From Pseudobdellovibrionaceae bacterium (GTDB taxonomy: Bacteria > Bdellovibrionota > Bdellovibrionia > Bdellovibrionales > Bdellovibrionaceae): 64,000 nt of DNA. Each line of letters opens with the position of its first letter. Position 1 is the first letter of the stretch. The stretch is from the NCBI GenBank assembly GCA_022843825.1, contig JALHMX010000011.1, positions 1 through 64,000 of the forward strand, read 5' to 3'. Shown piece by piece: positions 19,049-62,563 of the stretch. The position numbers and the translations under genes are program-made. The notes below the pieces were generated by a model. The model did no database searches. It was not told the DNA's origin and saw only the letters and a program-made list of their open reading frames with translations.

Positions 19049-19103
19049 AGGTGCCAGGCTACTTTTCGGAACGCTCTGCGTTCCGAAAAGTAGCCTGGCA
19101 CCT
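19049..19103. repeat. Perfect 26-bp inverted repeat (REP-like, GGTGCCAGGC family, copy A)
   Basis: AGGTGCCAGGCTACTTTTCGGAACGC-TCT-GCGTTCCGAAAAGTAGCCTGGCACCT. Confidence 0.9.
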
Positions 19104-19851
19104 AATAACATTGGCAGGTTGATGCGCCTGTGGCCAATGAAATGCAATTCAAGGTCTTGTTACCTTTGGTTAACGTGAATGAATCTAATTTTCCATTTTG
19201 CTCAATGATGGACATCTCTTCTCCTCCTTGAAAATAAGCTCGACCACCCTTTTCAGAGAGCATTACGTCTGAACCTACCATTAGCGATGCTATGTACTCA
19301 TCTGTGGGATTAATACTGTACTGCGGATCCATTTCTTCTAATTCAGGAATACCTTCTTCATTTAACTTATAAATTTGTAAATACCGAACAGGGTTTCCTG
19401 GATTATCATAATTAATTTCAGTTCGTATTCTTTTAGTTACACCATCACCATAGCGCACATCGGTTTGAGCCCAATCATCTGTGTAAACTGTGGCCTCTCC
19501 TAATGCTGGCTGTAAACTAGCCAATAGATTACTTAAAGTGGGATCTTGTGCAGCCTGATCTGTCGTATTTTTAACTTGTAAACACTGACTGATTTCATTT
19601 AATACATTAGAAAAAAGTACATTTTCTGTAGTTGATGCTTCTGCATCAGCCCCGATCACGGCCTCCGCAGAAGGAGTAACCTCATTAGTAAAATTATCTT
19701 GAGGTACACTTTCAGTTACTGGCGCAACACTTTCTCTGTAGGACCCAAATGAAGGCTGCATGTTTCCACGACCGAAATAATTATCCTGCCAATAAAAAAT
19801 CACCATGATAAAAATAGTTACCGCAATAATGAGTAAGTATTTTTTATTCAT
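19102..19851 (-). CDS. Hypothetical membrane-anchored/secreted protein
   Basis: N-terminal hydrophobic anchor MNKKYLLIIAVTIFIMVIFYW; no family recognised. Confidence 0.6.
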   Translation of the reverse strand: MNKKYLLIIAVTIFIMVIFYWQDNYFGRGNMQPSFGSYRESVAPVTESVPQDNFTNEVTPSAEAVIGADAEASTTENVLFSNVLNEISQCLQVKNTTDQAAQDPTLSNLLASLQPALGEATVYTDDWAQTDVRYGDGVTKRIRTEINYDNPGNPVRYLQIYKLNEEGIPELEEMDPQYSINPTDEYIASLMVGSDVMLSEKGGRAYFQGGEEMSIIEQNGKLDSFTLTKGNKTLNCISLATGASTCQCY

Positions 19852-29126: not shown

Positions 29127-30675
29127 TTTTCTTAGTTCTCATAAAGTCGCAGAAGACAAAGAGCATTTATCAATTCCCACTCGTTTACGTATGAGCTTCG
29201 AAGAGCTAGGTCCTACTTTTATTAAGTTTGGACAGCTTCTGGCCACCCGTCCTGACTTAGTCCCACAGGATTTTATTGATGAAATGTCTATGTTGCACGA
29301 TCATGTTCAATCTTTACCATTTAAAACAATCGCTGAAGTGATTTCCGAAGAGCTTGGAGCTGATTGGAAAAAACACTTTAAAACTATAAATGAAGAGCCT
29401 CTAGGATCAGCCAGTATAGCGCAGGTTCACGAGGCTGAGCTGCACAATGGTAAAAAAGTGGTCCTTAAAGTTCAGCGTCCAGGAATTGTTACGAAAATCA
29501 ACGATGACTTAAATGTACTGTATTTTATCGCCGAGCTTTTAGATCAATACATTCCTGAAGTCCGTCCTTTCAATCCGGTAGGCATGGTTGATGAGTATTT
29601 TAAGACACTTCAACTTGAGACTAACTTTCTGGTCGAAGCTAATAATATTCGTCGTTTCAAAATAAACTTTAAATCTGTCCCCGACGTCGTTATTCCCGAG
29701 GTGCACTTCGACTATTCCACAGAAAAAGTTCTGACCATGGACGCTATTCAAGGCGTGCCTGTCAGCCAAATAAATAACCCTGCTGAAATAAAGCAAAAAT
29801 TTAATGCAGACCCAGACAAAATTATGAAGCTGGGTTTTAAAAGTTATCTACAGATGGTTTTTGTGGACGGATTATTTCATGGCGATCTCCATCCTGGAAA
29901 CTTTTTCATTTTACCGGATAATAAAATAGGACTTATTGATTTCGGTGTAGTGGGGCGTATAAATTCGAAAACTCAGTCAGCGATTGTTAATATGCTGCTG
30001 GCTTTATCTAAAGAAGATTATCTGCGCTTAGCCTATGAATATGTGGACCTTGCCCCGTTCAGCGATATTGTCGACGTGGATCTTTTTGCTAAAGACTTAC
30101 AGGCGCTGATTGCGCCTTACTTCGGATTAACTTTAAAAAATGTCAACGTAGGTAAAATTTTATTAACGTCGTCAAGCATAGCTGCTCGTCATGGTCTTGT
30201 GGTGCCTACAGAATTAATGCTATTTTTTAAATCGATTATTTCTATAGAGTCTTTAGGGCAAAAAATATCAGATGATTTTGATTTCCTCAGTTTCGTATTG
30301 TCACAAGTGGGACAAGTCGCTGAAAACTTTTTTCAGCCAGTAAAAACGGCCAATGAGTTAAATCTTATTTTTCGTGAATCGCGAAATTTCTTAGGAGCAC
30401 TTCCTCGTCAGCTCAATCTAATGATGAGACGGATTAATTCTCCAAGCTACGCCAACCGAGTAGAACTGAGTGGCTTTGCAGATTTTTCGAAAATCTTCTT
30501 AAAATCCTTTACTCTGTTGTTCTTCGGTATTGTCATCGCCGCCTTAATTATTTCCAGCACAATGCTGTACTCTATCCCGACCAGTTTTTTAATCTTCGGA
30601 ATCCCCGGACTAAGCTTTATCGGATTTTCACTAGCATTATCCCTTGGAGCCTACGCTTTCCTTCGTTACTTTTAG
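28978..30675 (+). CDS. ubiB: AarF/ABC1/UbiB family protein kinase-like
   Basis: KNAGRLRIILAVLAKHGLSNLVERI, LGPTFIKFGQLLATRPDL, PLGSASIAQVHEAEL, GLFHGDLHPGNFF, GLIDFGVVG. Confidence 0.93.
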   Translation: MTKNQQPKSALLAPLKIGKTLKNAGRLRIILAVLAKHGLSNLVERINLGSFLSSHKVAEDKEHLSIPTRLRMSFEELGPTFIKFGQLLATRPDLVPQDFIDEMSMLHDHVQSLPFKTIAEVISEELGADWKKHFKTINEEPLGSASIAQVHEAELHNGKKVVLKVQRPGIVTKINDDLNVLYFIAELLDQYIPEVRPFNPVGMVDEYFKTLQLETNFLVEANNIRRFKINFKSVPDVVIPEVHFDYSTEKVLTMDAIQGVPVSQINNPAEIKQKFNADPDKIMKLGFKSYLQMVFVDGLFHGDLHPGNFFILPDNKIGLIDFGVVGRINSKTQSAIVNMLLALSKEDYLRLAYEYVDLAPFSDIVDVDLFAKDLQALIAPYFGLTLKNVNVGKILLTSSSIAARHGLVVPTELMLFFKSIISIESLGQKISDDFDFLSFVLSQVGQVAENFFQPVKTANELNLIFRESRNFLGALPRQLNLMMRRINSPSYANRVELSGFADFSKIFLKSFTLLFFGIVIAALIISSTMLYSIPTSFLIFGIPGLSFIGFSLALSLGAYAFLRYF

Positions 30676-30710
30676 GGTGCCAGGCAACCAAACTGTAAGC
30701 GCTGCACCTA
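30675..30710. repeat. GGTGCCAGGC family repeat, copy B (half element)
   Basis: GGGTGCCAGGCAACCAAACTGTAAGCGCTGCACCTA between convergent ubiB and TonB-receptor stop codons. Confidence 0.75.
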
Positions 30711-34733: not shown

Positions 34734-34762
34734 AAAAACCTCCGCAGTCATGATAGTTCAAT

Positions 34763-34823
34763 AAAAGGTGCCAGGCAACAAAGCTGGAAGCGGTGCTTAC
34801 AGTTTCGTTGCCTGGCACCTTTT
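34763..34823. repeat. GGTGCCAGGC family repeat, copy C (imperfect palindrome)
   Basis: 29-nt arms AAAAGGTGCCAGGCAACAAAGCTGGAAGC / GCTTACAGTTTCGTTGCCTGGCACCTTTT, 3 mismatches, GGT loop. Confidence 0.85.
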
Positions 34824-35792: not shown

Positions 35793-35859
35793 ATCTCTAT
35801 TATACGCCTTCTCAGCTAGGTCCTAAGATTGAATATTGTTCTTACTTGAGGAGTATTTT

Positions 35860-36624
35860 ATGAAAACAATGATATCTCTTATATTATTAGGTCTATCAGC
35901 AGCTATACTTACAGGTTGCGGTGGAAAAAATGAAAGTGGCGGCGTTGCTAATACGGCATGTCCGGCCGGATTCTATTACTATAATAACCAATGTTATCCT
36001 TTAAATAATAGCGGTGGTTACGTTAACCCTAACTTTAACTACAGCAGTGGATTCTACGCCGATAACCATTCAGGGACTACTGTTCTACGAGTAGTCGATG
36101 GCTCTCGCATGAAGCAGTTTTTCAAATTGGCTATGGGCGTATGTGATCGTGCTGCCTACAACTACGGACAAGCCTCATGTGATACTTATGTTGGCGGATC
36201 TATGGATATTATCATTCAATTTCCGAACAATGCGAACAGCTCTTTATTAGCAACTTTCATTGCTCGCCCAAGATATAACCCCTACAGTTATTATTCTGCG
36301 CAATTCCCATCAGGCTGGGGAATGCTTGGAATCGCACTAGGTACTATGACAGGTGTATACCTTCCCGACCCACAATCATATAACGGGGCCTACAAAAATC
36401 CATTACAATTAGAGATGGCAGTTTCAGCGATCAATAACTCCACTGGCTTTGAAGCACGCGGCTACGGAGATTATTGGACAGGGGCCAATACAACTTTATT
36501 GGCGATCCAGGTACCACAAGGTAAGGTAGAAGATCATCGCCTTAATTTTAATTTTATGGTGGGCGGACAAAATGCAGCTCAAGGGACGATGCAAAGATGT
36601 AATACTTTGAATTGCGGATTATAA
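35860..36624 (+). CDS. Hypothetical lipoprotein
   Basis: LSAAILTGCGGK lipobox; Tyr/Asn-rich mature region. Confidence 0.65.
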   Translation: MKTMISLILLGLSAAILTGCGGKNESGGVANTACPAGFYYYNNQCYPLNNSGGYVNPNFNYSSGFYADNHSGTTVLRVVDGSRMKQFFKLAMGVCDRAAYNYGQASCDTYVGGSMDIIIQFPNNANSSLLATFIARPRYNPYSYYSAQFPSGWGMLGIALGTMTGVYLPDPQSYNGAYKNPLQLEMAVSAINNSTGFEARGYGDYWTGANTTLLAIQVPQGKVEDHRLNFNFMVGGQNAAQGTMQRCNTLNCGL

Positions 36625-36646: not shown

Positions 36647-36874
36647 ATGAAACCAAAAGAAATTAAATGCCCGCAGTGCGGGCATTTAACATTATACAGT
36701 TTAGAAAATGCCTTTCGCCCCTTCTGCAGCGAACGCTGTCGCTTGCTGGACTTGGGCGACTGGGCTTCAGAAAACTATAAAATATCTCATACTAGTAATG
36801 ATCAAGATCATGATGAAGAAGAGGATCCTGAGAGTGAAGATCACGGAGCTTCAGACCCCTCAAAGCTTTCATAG
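36647..36874 (+). CDS. yacG: DNA gyrase inhibitor YacG-like zinc-binding protein
   Basis: IKCPQCGHLT...FRPFCSERCRLLDLGDWASENYKI. Confidence 0.9.
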   Translation: MKPKEIKCPQCGHLTLYSLENAFRPFCSERCRLLDLGDWASENYKISHTSNDQDHDEEEDPESEDHGASDPSKLS

Positions 36875-37327: not shown

Positions 37328-37359
37328 AAAAGGCGTGCTTGATAAAGTACGCCTTTTTT
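37328..37359 (+). terminator. Intrinsic terminator after the HU gene
   Basis: AAAGGCGTGCTT-GATA-AAGTACGCCTTTTTT. Confidence 0.88.
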
Positions 37360-37374
37360 ATTAAATCATACCCT

Positions 37375-38352
37375 ATGAATACTATTAAAAAAATTGGTTT
37401 ATTTACTAGTGGCGGAGATGCCCCGGGCATGAATGCAGCTATTCGGGCCGTGGTGCGTACTGCGATCTCGCATCAAATTGAAGTCGTAGGTATTTACCAA
37501 GGCTATATCGGCATGATCGAAAATAAAATGGCTCCTTTGCAAATGCGAGAAATGGCAAATATCATTCAACGCGGAGGAACTATTCTAAAAACCGGTCGCT
37601 CGGCAGAGTTTTTAAAAGCAGAGTTTCGAACGACAGCAGCTAAAAATTTAAAAAGTGCAGGAATTGACGGATTAGTTTGTATAGGCGGAGATGGCTCTTT
37701 CAAAGGAGCTCAGGCCCTATGGGCTGAACACCGCATTCCCGTCATTGGAATACCAGGAACAATTGATAATGATGTTTATGGTACTGACGACACCATAGGT
37801 TTTGATACTGCAGTGAATACTGCTTTAAATGCGATAGATAAAATTCGTGACACTGCTGATAGCCATGATCGAATTTTTATCGTAGAGGTCATGGGACGTA
37901 ACTCGGGATTTATTGCGTCACATGTCGGGGTCGCCGGTGGAGCAGAAGAAATCTTAACGCCAGATAATGTTGTGACTGTAAGTAAAATAGTTGAAATGTT
38001 GAAAGACTCGCGCGCTCGTGGAAAGACAAGCAGTATACTAATTACTGCTGAAGGCCAAAAACCAGGCAGAGCTTACGACCTGGCCGATGCGATACGCTCG
38101 AAATCAAATTTCGATGCTAAAGTTTGCATATTAGGACACCAGCAACGCGGAGGAAGTCCCACTGCCCATGATCGCATTTTAGCGTCTCAGTTAGGTGCTG
38201 CCGCCGTACAAGCCCTGATTCAAGGAAAATCCAATTTAATGATTGGGATAGCCGCTGATAAAATCGTTGAAGTCGATCTTGATGTCGTCACTAAAAAATT
38301 AAAACCTCATGATAATAGCTTGATTAATTTAGCCAGAATGCTATCAGTTTAA
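37375..38352 (+). CDS. pfkA: 6-phosphofructokinase
   Basis: KKIGLFTSGGDAPGMNAAIRAVVR, IGGDGSFKGA, GIPGTIDNDVYGTDDTIGFDTAVNTA. Confidence 0.97.
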   Translation: MNTIKKIGLFTSGGDAPGMNAAIRAVVRTAISHQIEVVGIYQGYIGMIENKMAPLQMREMANIIQRGGTILKTGRSAEFLKAEFRTTAAKNLKSAGIDGLVCIGGDGSFKGAQALWAEHRIPVIGIPGTIDNDVYGTDDTIGFDTAVNTALNAIDKIRDTADSHDRIFIVEVMGRNSGFIASHVGVAGGAEEILTPDNVVTVSKIVEMLKDSRARGKTSSILITAEGQKPGRAYDLADAIRSKSNFDAKVCILGHQQRGGSPTAHDRILASQLGAAAVQALIQGKSNLMIGIAADKIVEVDLDVVTKKLKPHDNSLINLARMLSV

Positions 38353-58836: not shown

Positions 58837-58890
58837 GGGTGCCAGGTTGAGTTTACGGACGCGCCGCTTACAGGAACGGTGCCTGACCTT
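58837..58890. repeat. GGTGCCAGGC family repeat, copy D
   Basis: GGGTGCCAGGTTGAGTTTACGGACGCGCCGCTTACAGGAACGGTGCCTGACC between convergent mlaD and DUF721 genes. Confidence 0.75.
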
Positions 58891-58895
58891 TTTTT

Positions 58896-59336: not shown

Positions 59337-60671
59337 ATGCCAGAACAAACTTCTCAACCTAAGTCATTATCAAGCATTTCCGTTGTAGGAGCGGGTTTGG
59401 CTGGCAGCGAATGTGCTCTACAATTAGCCGACTTAGGATATGCCGTAACATTATACGAAATGCGCGGAGTTCAATCAACTGAAGCCCACAAGACCACAGA
59501 TTTTGCCGAACTGGTGTGTTCAAATTCTTTTGGGAGCCAATCCAGCGTGTCGGCACCGGGACAACTCAAGTGGGAAGCCCAACACTTAAATAGTTATATT
59601 TTAAAGACAGCCAAAGAATTTTCGGTACCTGCAGGACAAGCTTTAGGAATAGACCGTGAAGTGTTTGCAAAAAAAATTACCGAGTTAGTTGCAGCTCATC
59701 CGAAAATCAAAATTGAACGCAAAGTTGTTAACAGCCTAAACGAAGTGCCGCGACCCACAGTCGTTGCTACAGGACCTTTAACTTTTGAACCCTTAGCCAA
59801 TAGCCTAAAAGATCATTTTGGCGATGATTTTCTTTATTTTTTTGATGCCATCGCCCCGATTATTGATGCCGATTCGATTAATACTGAAGTTGCGTGGAAA
59901 GCCGATCGTTACAACAAAGGCACTGCAGATTATTACAACTGTCCGCTTAACAAAGAACAATATTTTAACTTCGTTAAAGAAATTGAGCTTGCGCGAAAAA
60001 TTGAACCTAAACATTTTGAAACCACAAATTTTTTTGAAGGCTGTATGCCCATCGAAGTCATGGTGGAGCGTGGTCCTCAAACGCTGCGCTTTGGCCCCAT
60101 GAAACCTGTAGGCTTAGATGATCCTCGTACTGGTCGTTATCCTTTTGCCGTGGTTCAACTCAGACAAGACAATGCCGAAGCCACAGCCTACAACATTGTG
60201 GGTTTTCAAACTCGTATGGCCTATGGCGAACAAACTCGTATTTTCAAAATGATTCCCGGACTAGAAAACGCAGAGTTTTTAAAGTTGGGAAGCATTCACC
60301 GTAATTTATATATAAATACTCCCAAAATGCTGAATAAAGATTTATCCAGCAAAAAGGATCCTTGGCTTTTTTTCGCCGGACAAATCACCGGCGTTGAAGG
60401 CTATTTTGAATCGACCTGCACAGGATTGTTGGTCGCCAAATTTATACATCAGAAATTAAGTGATAAAACATTCTCTCCGCCTCCGCGTCTGTCTGCTATG
60501 GGATCATTGCTGAATGCAATTACTGACGAATTTAAAATTAACACCTTCCAACCAACGAATATTAATTTTGCGTTGTTTCCACCATTAGAAAATCCAACTA
60601 AAGACAAAGCCCTCAAAAAAGCGGCTCAGATTAAATTAGCGCAAGATGCTTTAGTTCAGTGGACTCTTTGA
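59337..60671 (+). CDS. trmFO: Methylenetetrahydrofolate-tRNA-(uracil54-C5)-methyltransferase TrmFO
   Basis: VVGAGLAGSECALQLADLGYAVTLYEMR, TDFAELVCSNSFGS, FEGCMPIEVMVERGPQTLRFGPMKPVGL. Confidence 0.97.
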   Translation: MPEQTSQPKSLSSISVVGAGLAGSECALQLADLGYAVTLYEMRGVQSTEAHKTTDFAELVCSNSFGSQSSVSAPGQLKWEAQHLNSYILKTAKEFSVPAGQALGIDREVFAKKITELVAAHPKIKIERKVVNSLNEVPRPTVVATGPLTFEPLANSLKDHFGDDFLYFFDAIAPIIDADSINTEVAWKADRYNKGTADYYNCPLNKEQYFNFVKEIELARKIEPKHFETTNFFEGCMPIEVMVERGPQTLRFGPMKPVGLDDPRTGRYPFAVVQLRQDNAEATAYNIVGFQTRMAYGEQTRIFKMIPGLENAEFLKLGSIHRNLYINTPKMLNKDLSSKKDPWLFFAGQITGVEGYFESTCTGLLVAKFIHQKLSDKTFSPPPRLSAMGSLLNAITDEFKINTFQPTNINFALFPPLENPTKDKALKKAAQIKLAQDALVQWTL

Positions 60672-60678
60672 ATTTTAC

Positions 60679-60715
60679 TGCGCTGTTTACAGGAAAGTAG
60701 CCTGACCCCTTTTTA
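60679..60715. repeat. GGTGCCAGGC family repeat, copy E (half element)
   Basis: CGCTGTTTACAGGAAAGTAGCCTGACCCCTTTTT between convergent trmFO and glmS. Confidence 0.65.
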
Positions 60716-62563
60716 TTCGACAGTGACAGATTTGGCGAGATTGCGGGGTTGGTCGACGTCGTAACCTAAGCTGTCGGCTAAGTGATAGGCCATCAACTGA
60801 AGGGGCACGACAGCGATAATGGGATTAGTCGTCCACAGAGAGCCAGGAAGTGATAAGTAGTATTCACTCATGTCTTTTAAGGCTTTGTTTTCACCGGTAC
60901 CGATTGAAATAATTTTTCCGCCGCGCGCTTTAGCTTCTTGCAGGTTGCTTACAGTTTTATCTAGCAGCTCATCTGAAGGAGCGACAACCACGATGGCCAT
61001 GGATTCATCAATTAAAGCCAACGGCCCATGTTTCATTTCGCCAGCCGCATAGCCTTCGGCATGCATGTAAGCTAACTCTTTAAGTTTTAATGCGCCTTCT
61101 AAAGCTATAGGATAATTTACCCCTCGGCCAAGATAAAGGAAACCTTTGTATTTCTGTAACTCTTTTGCCGCTTCTGAAAAATACTTATCATAAGCTAAAA
61201 CAACTTCGATTTGACTGGGAATAGTTAATAAGTTTTGCACGTATTCTTTCTCACTAACTGGAGAAAGCGATCCACGAGCTTTGGAAATTTGCAAAGCGAG
61301 GACATTTAACAATGCCAAGGTACTGGTGAAAGCTTTAGTGCTAGCTACTCCAATTTCCACTCCAGAATTCATATACATGTGCGCATCAGCTTCACGGTCA
61401 ATCGAGGACTGCGCGACATTAGTAATGGATAGAACTTGAGCGCCTTGCTCTTTGGCCAATCGCACCGCGGCCAACGTGTCTGCCGTTTCTCCACTTTGCG
61501 AAACTGAAATCACTAAACTGTTTTTTGGTATTACCGGACGTCGATAACGAAATTCACTAGCTATATCAGTATCGACCGGTACTCGGCATATTTGCTCTAT
61601 CAAATATTTTCCGATCATCGACGCATAAAAACTAGTTCCACAAGCGACGAAAATAACCCGCTCAATACTTTTAAAAATCGTTTCGCTGTTAAAACTTTTA
61701 CCTTGGTCGTTAAACTTAACTGCATGTGTGTCGGTGTCAATATAAGGAGCTATGGCCGCAGCTACAGATCGCGGCTGCTCATATAACTCTTTCAACATAA
61801 AATGGCGATAACCCATTTTTTCCACCATATCCGCAGTCCAGTTTAAAACAGTTATCTCTTTTTTTAAGGTGGCGCCATCAGCATTATAATAATTAACGGC
61901 TTTGTCTTTGATATGGACCACTTCGCGATCGTTCAGATAAACAAATCTATTGGTATGGACCAAAGCGGCCTGTACATCACTGACAACAAAGAATTCTGAC
62001 TTTTCAGTATCTTTACTTAACCCCACTATAAGTGGTGGTCCATCTTTGAATGCGACCAATTCATTAGGTGATTTTTCCCAAAGCGCAACGATCGAAAACG
62101 CTCCAATAATTTTTTTCAACACAATTTGAACTGACAATAATAGGTTTTGATTTTTTTGAAGCTCTTTCCAAATTAAATGCGCGACCAGTTCTGAATCTGT
62201 ATCCGAGCTAATCACAGCGCCCTCTTTAATTAGTTCAGCTTTAATTTCTAAATAGTTTTCGATTATTCCGTTATGGACTAAACTTACTTCTCCAACCTGA
62301 TGAGGATGCGCATTTCTTTCGTTAGGCGCACCATGAGTTGCCCAACGAGTATGGCCTATGCCGACATGACCATTAAAGTCTTCGTTAAGTACTTTTTCCT
62401 CTAAGGCCTTTAATTTTCCCTGTGCTCGAATACGTTTTGTTTTACCATTATGAATAATTGCTACGCCTGCGCTATCATATCCGCGATATTCCAATTTTTT
62501 TAAACCATCAATAATGACTGTTTTAGGATTTTTTTCGCCTAAGTAGCCAACAATTCCACACAT
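60713..62563 (-). CDS. glmS: Glutamine-fructose-6-phosphate aminotransferase
   Basis: MCGIVGYLGEKNPKTVIIDGLKKLEYRGYDSAGVA, HTRWATHGAPNERNAHPH, SQSGETADTLAA. Confidence 0.98.
   Translation of the reverse strand: MCGIVGYLGEKNPKTVIIDGLKKLEYRGYDSAGVAIIHNGKTKRIRAQGKLKALEEKVLNEDFNGHVGIGHTRWATHGAPNERNAHPHQVGEVSLVHNGIIENYLEIKAELIKEGAVISSDTDSELVAHLIWKELQKNQNLLLSVQIVLKKIIGAFSIVALWEKSPNELVAFKDGPPLIVGLSKDTEKSEFFVVSDVQAALVHTNRFVYLNDREVVHIKDKAVNYYNADGATLKKEITVLNWTADMVEKMGYRHFMLKELYEQPRSVAAAIAPYIDTDTHAVKFNDQGKSFNSETIFKSIERVIFVACGTSFYASMIGKYLIEQICRVPVDTDIASEFRYRRPVIPKNSLVISVSQSGETADTLAAVRLAKEQGAQVLSITNVAQSSIDREADAHMYMNSGVEIGVASTKAFTSTLALLNVLALQISKARGSLSPVSEKEYVQNLLTIPSQIEVVLAYDKYFSEAAKELQKYKGFLYLGRGVNYPIALEGALKLKELAYMHAEGYAAGEMKHGPLALIDESMAIVVVAPSDELLDKTVSNLQEAKARGGKIISIGTGENKALKDMSEYYLSLPGSLWTTNPIIAVVPLQLMAYHLADSLGYDVDQPRNLAKSVTVE

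Follow-up and report, generated by a model that had tools for sequence, protein, structure and literature searches.

Dispersed palindromic repeats in a Pseudobdellovibrionaceae genome as very probable miniature elements of resident Y1 transposases

TIRtrons consist of a RAYT-like Y1 transposase gene (TIRYT) placed between long inverted repeats, the TIRs, which are also dispersed through the genome in moderate abundance as single and dimeric copies (PMC3733652); they largely correspond to subclass 2.1 of PMC6006769. Among the related REP systems, it has already been published that GTAG REPs supply TAG stop codons and prefer gene 3' ends (PMC3733652), and the IS200/IS605 elements end in small subterminal hairpins (PMC6006769). 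Here we describe a family of palindromic repeats in a 64,000-nt stretch of DNA (the window) and follow it through the 2.40-Mb draft genome (33 contigs) to which the window belongs. These repeats are very probably non-autonomous miniature elements, or TIR repeats, belonging to Y1/HUH transposases of the TnpA-REP superfamily that reside in the same genome.

Repeat copies in the window and in the genome

A first-pass annotation of the window had listed five dispersed copies, A to E, and this count is upheld. A profile of the 31-nt repeat unit, made from catalogued copies with copy D excluded, finds eight units that coincide exactly with A to E (scores 24-47) and no additional unit; nothing else in the window scores above 6, with five shuffled windows peaking at 8.2. 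Copy A (19049-19103) is a 55-bp palindrome of family R1 and, as had been read, its 26-bp arms around 3 nt are perfect; the minus-strand gene 19102-19851 has its TAG stop (19104-19102) completed by the right head of A. Copy C (34766-34820) is a 55-bp palindrome of the GGTGCCAGGCAAC...CTGTAAGC family, and A/T runs lengthen its arms to 34763-34823, giving the imperfect palindrome described before (29-bp arms, 90% complementary). Copies B, D and E had been called half or diverged elements. Copy E (60680-60710, minus strand) is a single 31-nt unit, AGGGGTCAGGCTACTTTCCTGTAAACAGCGC, and copy B (30675-30710, plus strand) is a single 31-nt unit at 30675-30705, GGGTGCCAGGCAACCAAACTGTAAGCGCTGC, with the final bases of another head behind it; copy B is probably a palindrome with an internal deletion. 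Copy D (58837-58891) is instead a full-length palindrome whose arms come from two families, GGTGCCAGGTTGAG... and AGGTCAGGCACC...CTGTAAGC; like A and C, it is listed without a strand. The covariance model (model R1), built from 18 full genomic copies including A and C, gives 81 bits for A, 69 bits for C and about 20 bits for D, and the two units of D score 24-25 in the unit-profile scan. Rfam has no match anywhere in the window, and tandem or CRISPR repeats are ruled out because the copies are palindromic and dispersed.

Four of the five copies lie between convergent genes, as claimed, and the exception is copy C, which lies between divergent genes. Copy B directly adjoins the stops of both its convergent neighbours, which end at 30675 (plus strand) and 30708 (minus strand), copy D is flanked by convergent mlaD-like and dciA-like genes, and the head of copy E lies 2 nt past the TAA stop of a glmS-like gene (60713-62563, minus strand), with the end of a GIDA-family gene (59337-60671) on its other side. 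An acetyl-CoA-synthetase-like gene (minus strand) starts at 34751, and copy C lies 14 bp upstream of it; the long hairpin placed there (34751-34820) could influence the expression of the gene. The window also holds a perfect 12-bp hairpin, TTAAATGCCCGCAGTGCGGGCATTTAA, at 36663-36689 between the ORFs 35836-36624 and 37339-38352; it scores weakly with model R1 (15 bits) and is likely an ordinary terminator.

Searches of the whole genome find the core of the repeats far above chance, and the relation between copies extends past the 10-bp head. GGTGCCAGGCNAC, searched with at most one mismatch, has 55 matches versus 2 for the reversed control, and GGGGTCAGGCNMC has 37 matches versus 5 for its control. 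The starts of paired matches show a constant spacing of 40 bp, indicating that the full element is 55 bp long. Rather than only a few copies genome-wide, our catalogue contains at least 114 units at 71 sites, comprising 43 palindromes and 28 singles; the number of units is a lower bound, as the model search scored 150 of 506 first-look candidates, and a search with the R6 end finds a few more copies of family R6 than were catalogued.

Each 31-nt unit consists of AGG, a head, about 12 variable nt and GC NNN GC. In the commonest form, two units with their heads outward overlap at the GCNNNGC core to make a palindrome with a fixed length of 55 bp, and the 18 full copies align without a gap. Per 25 positions, the two arms differ at 1.56 within a palindrome versus 2.76 between palindromes of one family, and none of 5000 shuffles gave a value as low, indicating that copying or correction acts on the whole palindrome. 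Pair counts agree with this likeness of the arms, with the caveat that the sequences were chosen as palindromes. In 11 of the 43 palindromes, D included, the arms were assigned to different families, some of these assignments being weak.

Resident transposases and the spread of the families

The window was said to hold no transposase, and indeed none is found there, while cognate Y1/RAYT transposases with matching terminal repeats are present elsewhere in the genome. Among 11 Y1_Tnp matches, three genes of one subtype, RAYT-1 (C12:49634-50293), RAYT-3 (contig C14) and RAYT-6 (contig C18), each of them single, have units on both sides in the arrangement inverted repeat, gene, inverted repeat. 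Their terminal repeats match three of the dispersed repeat families: RAYT-3 is bordered by AGGGGTCAGGCTCCC..., RAYT-6 by AGGTACCAGTTCCC... and RAYT-1 by the arm of copy A. Because the terminal repeat of RAYT-1 is identical to both arms of copy A, copy A resembles the two ends of RAYT-1 minus the gene. The RAYT-1 element, ends included, also begins immediately behind the stop of a nifU-like gene, like the small copies. For the body type of copies B, C and E (CTGTAAGC), no transposase bordered on both sides is found in this assembly; RAYT-5 was considered as the source of the CTGTAAGC family and is unsupported, as it has a unit on one side only. Eight more Y1 transposase genes (L002, L004, L005, L007, L008 and L009-L011) belong to two other subtypes, and none of these has units on both sides, L005 having one unit on one side.

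RAYT-1 matches Pfam PF01797 (Y1_Tnp) above the cut-off and the NCBIfam model REP_Tyr_transpos below the cut-off (62.8 of 80 bits). Its first match, both by sequence and by predicted fold, is the TnpA-REP structure 4er8 (E 3e-8; pLDDT 92.8 for a model built with 38 sequences), and 2a6m and 2xm3 are also among the fold matches. The HUH histidines and the tyrosine in YxxxNP are invariant among the transposases. The relatives of these transposases are mostly from Bdellovibrionaceae and Pseudobdellovibrio assemblies, and at 36 of 41 related genes, nearly all from Bdellovibrionota, the flanking inverted repeats score at least 13. When flanks were mismatched as a control, upstream from one locus and downstream from a second, scores of 7-12 predominated; the small number above that range probably comes from shared heads or near-duplicate loci. 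A gammaproteobacterial relative (L226) has AAAGGGGTCAGAGTAA repeats on its flanks, in agreement with the GGGGWSAS motif of TIRtrons.

We also compared the repeat families with those of 13 congeners. At up to 3 mismatches, the 25-mer from the RAYT-1 end has 39 matches in this genome and none in the 13 congeners. The R6 end has 36 matches here and a single one elsewhere (3 mismatches). Conversely, the end of one RAYT of the congener G002 is present 30 times in G002 and absent from this genome. This genome and G002 thus each contain families that correspond to resident transposases, as expected if the families were spread by transposase after the species split. Most orthologous gene ends in relatives lack the element and have an unchanged C-terminus (for example, YSSASS*, YRRNL* and VLKN*); the glmS-like gene by copy E keeps its VTVE* C-terminus in relatives that lack the element, and in G002 the genes around copy D are separated by about 20 bp. 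Since the C-termini match those of relatives, the idea that insertions shorten genes is mostly rejected; 1-2 residues are lost by the right-hand gene at G000:C10:23982 and at a few other sites. Flanking genes are often non-neighbours in relatives, and the palindromes might mark rearrangement breakpoints; for the flush ends, however, a 55-bp insertion into a short convergent gap is explanation enough.

Some gene ends carry an element of a different family in another species. The end of a dnaB-like gene has an R6 palindrome here and a single unit in G002, the end of the nifU-like gene has RAYT-1 here and a single unit in G002, and at the sites C2:134254 and C4:136629, G005 and G004, respectively, have their own palindromes. 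In a reciprocal test, different families are present at the same gene ends across species in 3 of 17 cases (P ~0.02, with an approximate base rate), and in one of these three (C21) the unit head faces the opposite gene. Such shared gene ends hint at hot spots or at a use as terminators. After the mlaD-like gene of copy D, three congeners have another motif, GGGGTATCGGTCACG or similar (L148, L149 and L151, in G013, G004 and G005).

Placement at stop codons and a possible terminator role

Heads that face a gene 3' end lie at -3 to +4 nt from the stop codon in 62 of 83 cases, and a TAG stop is completed by the majority of heads in G002. None of the 29 heads facing a 5' end lies 0-5 nt from the start, three negative gaps being overlaps that arise from simple ORF calling. 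Convergent pairs without an element in this genome (G000) are separated by a median of 3 bp, and 10 of 29 such pairs overlap, whereas the gaps of pairs with an element cluster near 57 bp; inserting 55 bp into so tightly packed a genome is therefore enough to make both ends flush. Such a fit could be purely passive, with insertion at random and survival only between the stops of tightly packed genes, as any insertion tolerated in a 3-bp convergent gap would be flush with both stops. We regard this as a real possibility but lean against it, because elements are also flush with stops where there is room to lie elsewhere. Co-directional gene pairs leave up to about 200 bp of room, yet 19 of the 29 elements between them lie at -3 to +4 nt of the upstream stop versus 3.9 expected under uniform placement, a null that ignores selection for promoters, and no element lies that near a start. 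In addition, a T plus A-run precedes 53 of 62 heads, and also 37 of 52 heads away from stops, versus a background of 45%. Together with the stop-flush elements between co-directional genes, the T(A)n before heads away from stops points to some sequence preference. A bolder proposal is that the transposases target stop codons, as T(A)n at gene ends, for safe landing, and that each insertion leaves the stop intact or restores it while putting a hairpin between convergent genes; the repeat would then be a self-propagating gene-end module, with different families reinstalled at the same genes across species. We consider this rather unlikely. By eye, no consistent target-site duplication is seen in the flanks of the copies.

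If the repeats are miniature elements of the resident transposases, the cognate enzyme would cut single-stranded DNA at the heads, at the boundary ...GGCACC|T, which fits the C|T cut site of the TnpA-REP enzymes studied so far (PMC8266576). The 55-bp palindrome would then be placed at new sites beside T(A)n, and stop codons would be the T(A)n sites that are tolerated in a densely packed genome. Where a family has an A-run ahead of its heads, a T-run would lie beyond the palindrome, and families of this kind could be ready-made bidirectional terminators or 3'-end hairpins. Several findings count against this explanation: the multicopy unit is the palindrome and not the transposon end, the CTGTAAGC body type borders no transposase on both sides in this assembly, the flanks show no consistent target-site signature, and most R6 copies are without a T-run.

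Copies A and C are predicted to form very stable RNA hairpins, single units fold no better than shuffles, and no notable hairpin is predicted for B, D and E. A GC-rich hairpin with a T-run is present in both directions in C and on the minus strand in A, and it is absent from single units and most R6 palindromes. A/T runs flank many R1 and R3 copies, and the R6 palindromes are mostly without a T-run. For the families with T-runs, a terminator role is plausible. The first-pass annotation had raised the idea of recycled bidirectional terminators, that is, hairpins kept or spread because convergent genes need one, with mobility by transposase secondary or absent. The strong hairpins of A and C, the A/T runs beside many R1 and R3 copies, the location of the majority of copies at gene 3' ends and the 3 of 17 gene ends shared by different families all agree with this idea, but the single units and copies B, D and E lack a notable hairpin, the R6 family mostly lacks the T-run, and the families copy transposase ends and belong to one species each, which termination alone would not account for. 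As the main account of the repeats it is very unlikely; termination is possible as a secondary role.

Comparison with known systems

The transposases share the Y1 HUH fold with IS200/IS605 enzymes (2a6m and 2xm3), whereas the ends here are near-identical long inverted repeats rather than small subterminal hairpins. The likeness to REP/REPIN-RAYT systems is closer, and includes the same superfamily (4er8 as the top match), inverted pairs, location at gene 3' ends and TAG stops supplied by the repeat. The earlier reading of these repeats as REP/RAYT-type thus had the kind right, but it does not hold for classical REPs. That these are canonical GTAG REPs or BIMEs moved by a classical RAYT is highly improbable, even though the transposase has the TnpA-REP fold, the other strand of R1 reads GTAG-CCTGGCACC, and dimers and TAG stops occur as described for REPs. 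A single unit here has no hairpin of its own, GTAG is confined to R1 with GTTG and GGAG in other families, the transposase genes end in long terminal inverted repeats instead of small palindromes, and the copies number tens versus hundreds to thousands.

The most interesting features of the repeats described here are their sharp placement at stop codons and the mixed-family palindromes. With three coexisting transposase-repeat pairs, lineage-specific families and stop placement within a few bases, this genome offers a clean comparative setting for TIRtron-type elements, which are little-studied relatives of REP/RAYT systems. What the Y1 relatives of TnpA-REP recognise, and whether gene ends are chosen or are where insertions survive, becomes directly testable with purified proteins and defined substrates of 31 or 55 nt.

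The known kind that fits better than canonical REPs is the TIRtron/TIRYT with its TIR repeats (PMC3733652). As in TIRtrons, a RAYT-like Y1 gene lies between long inverted repeats at RAYT-1, RAYT-3 and RAYT-6 and at the 36 of 41 relatives, and the terminal repeat is also dispersed, moderately abundant, and both single and dimeric (114 units, 43 dimers and 28 singles in the catalogue). The NH[YF]H motif of subclass 2.1 (PMC6006769) is found here as well. The GGGGTCAG heads fit the TIRtron motif GGGGWSAS and the GGTGCCAG and GGTACCAG heads do not, this motif being a majority feature of TIRtrons and not a universal one. The repeats described here differ from TIRtrons in that the dimers are fixed at 55 bp with a shared core, that three transposase-repeat pairs and mixed palindromes occur together in one small genome, and that Pfam finds no C-terminal HTH domain in the transposases.
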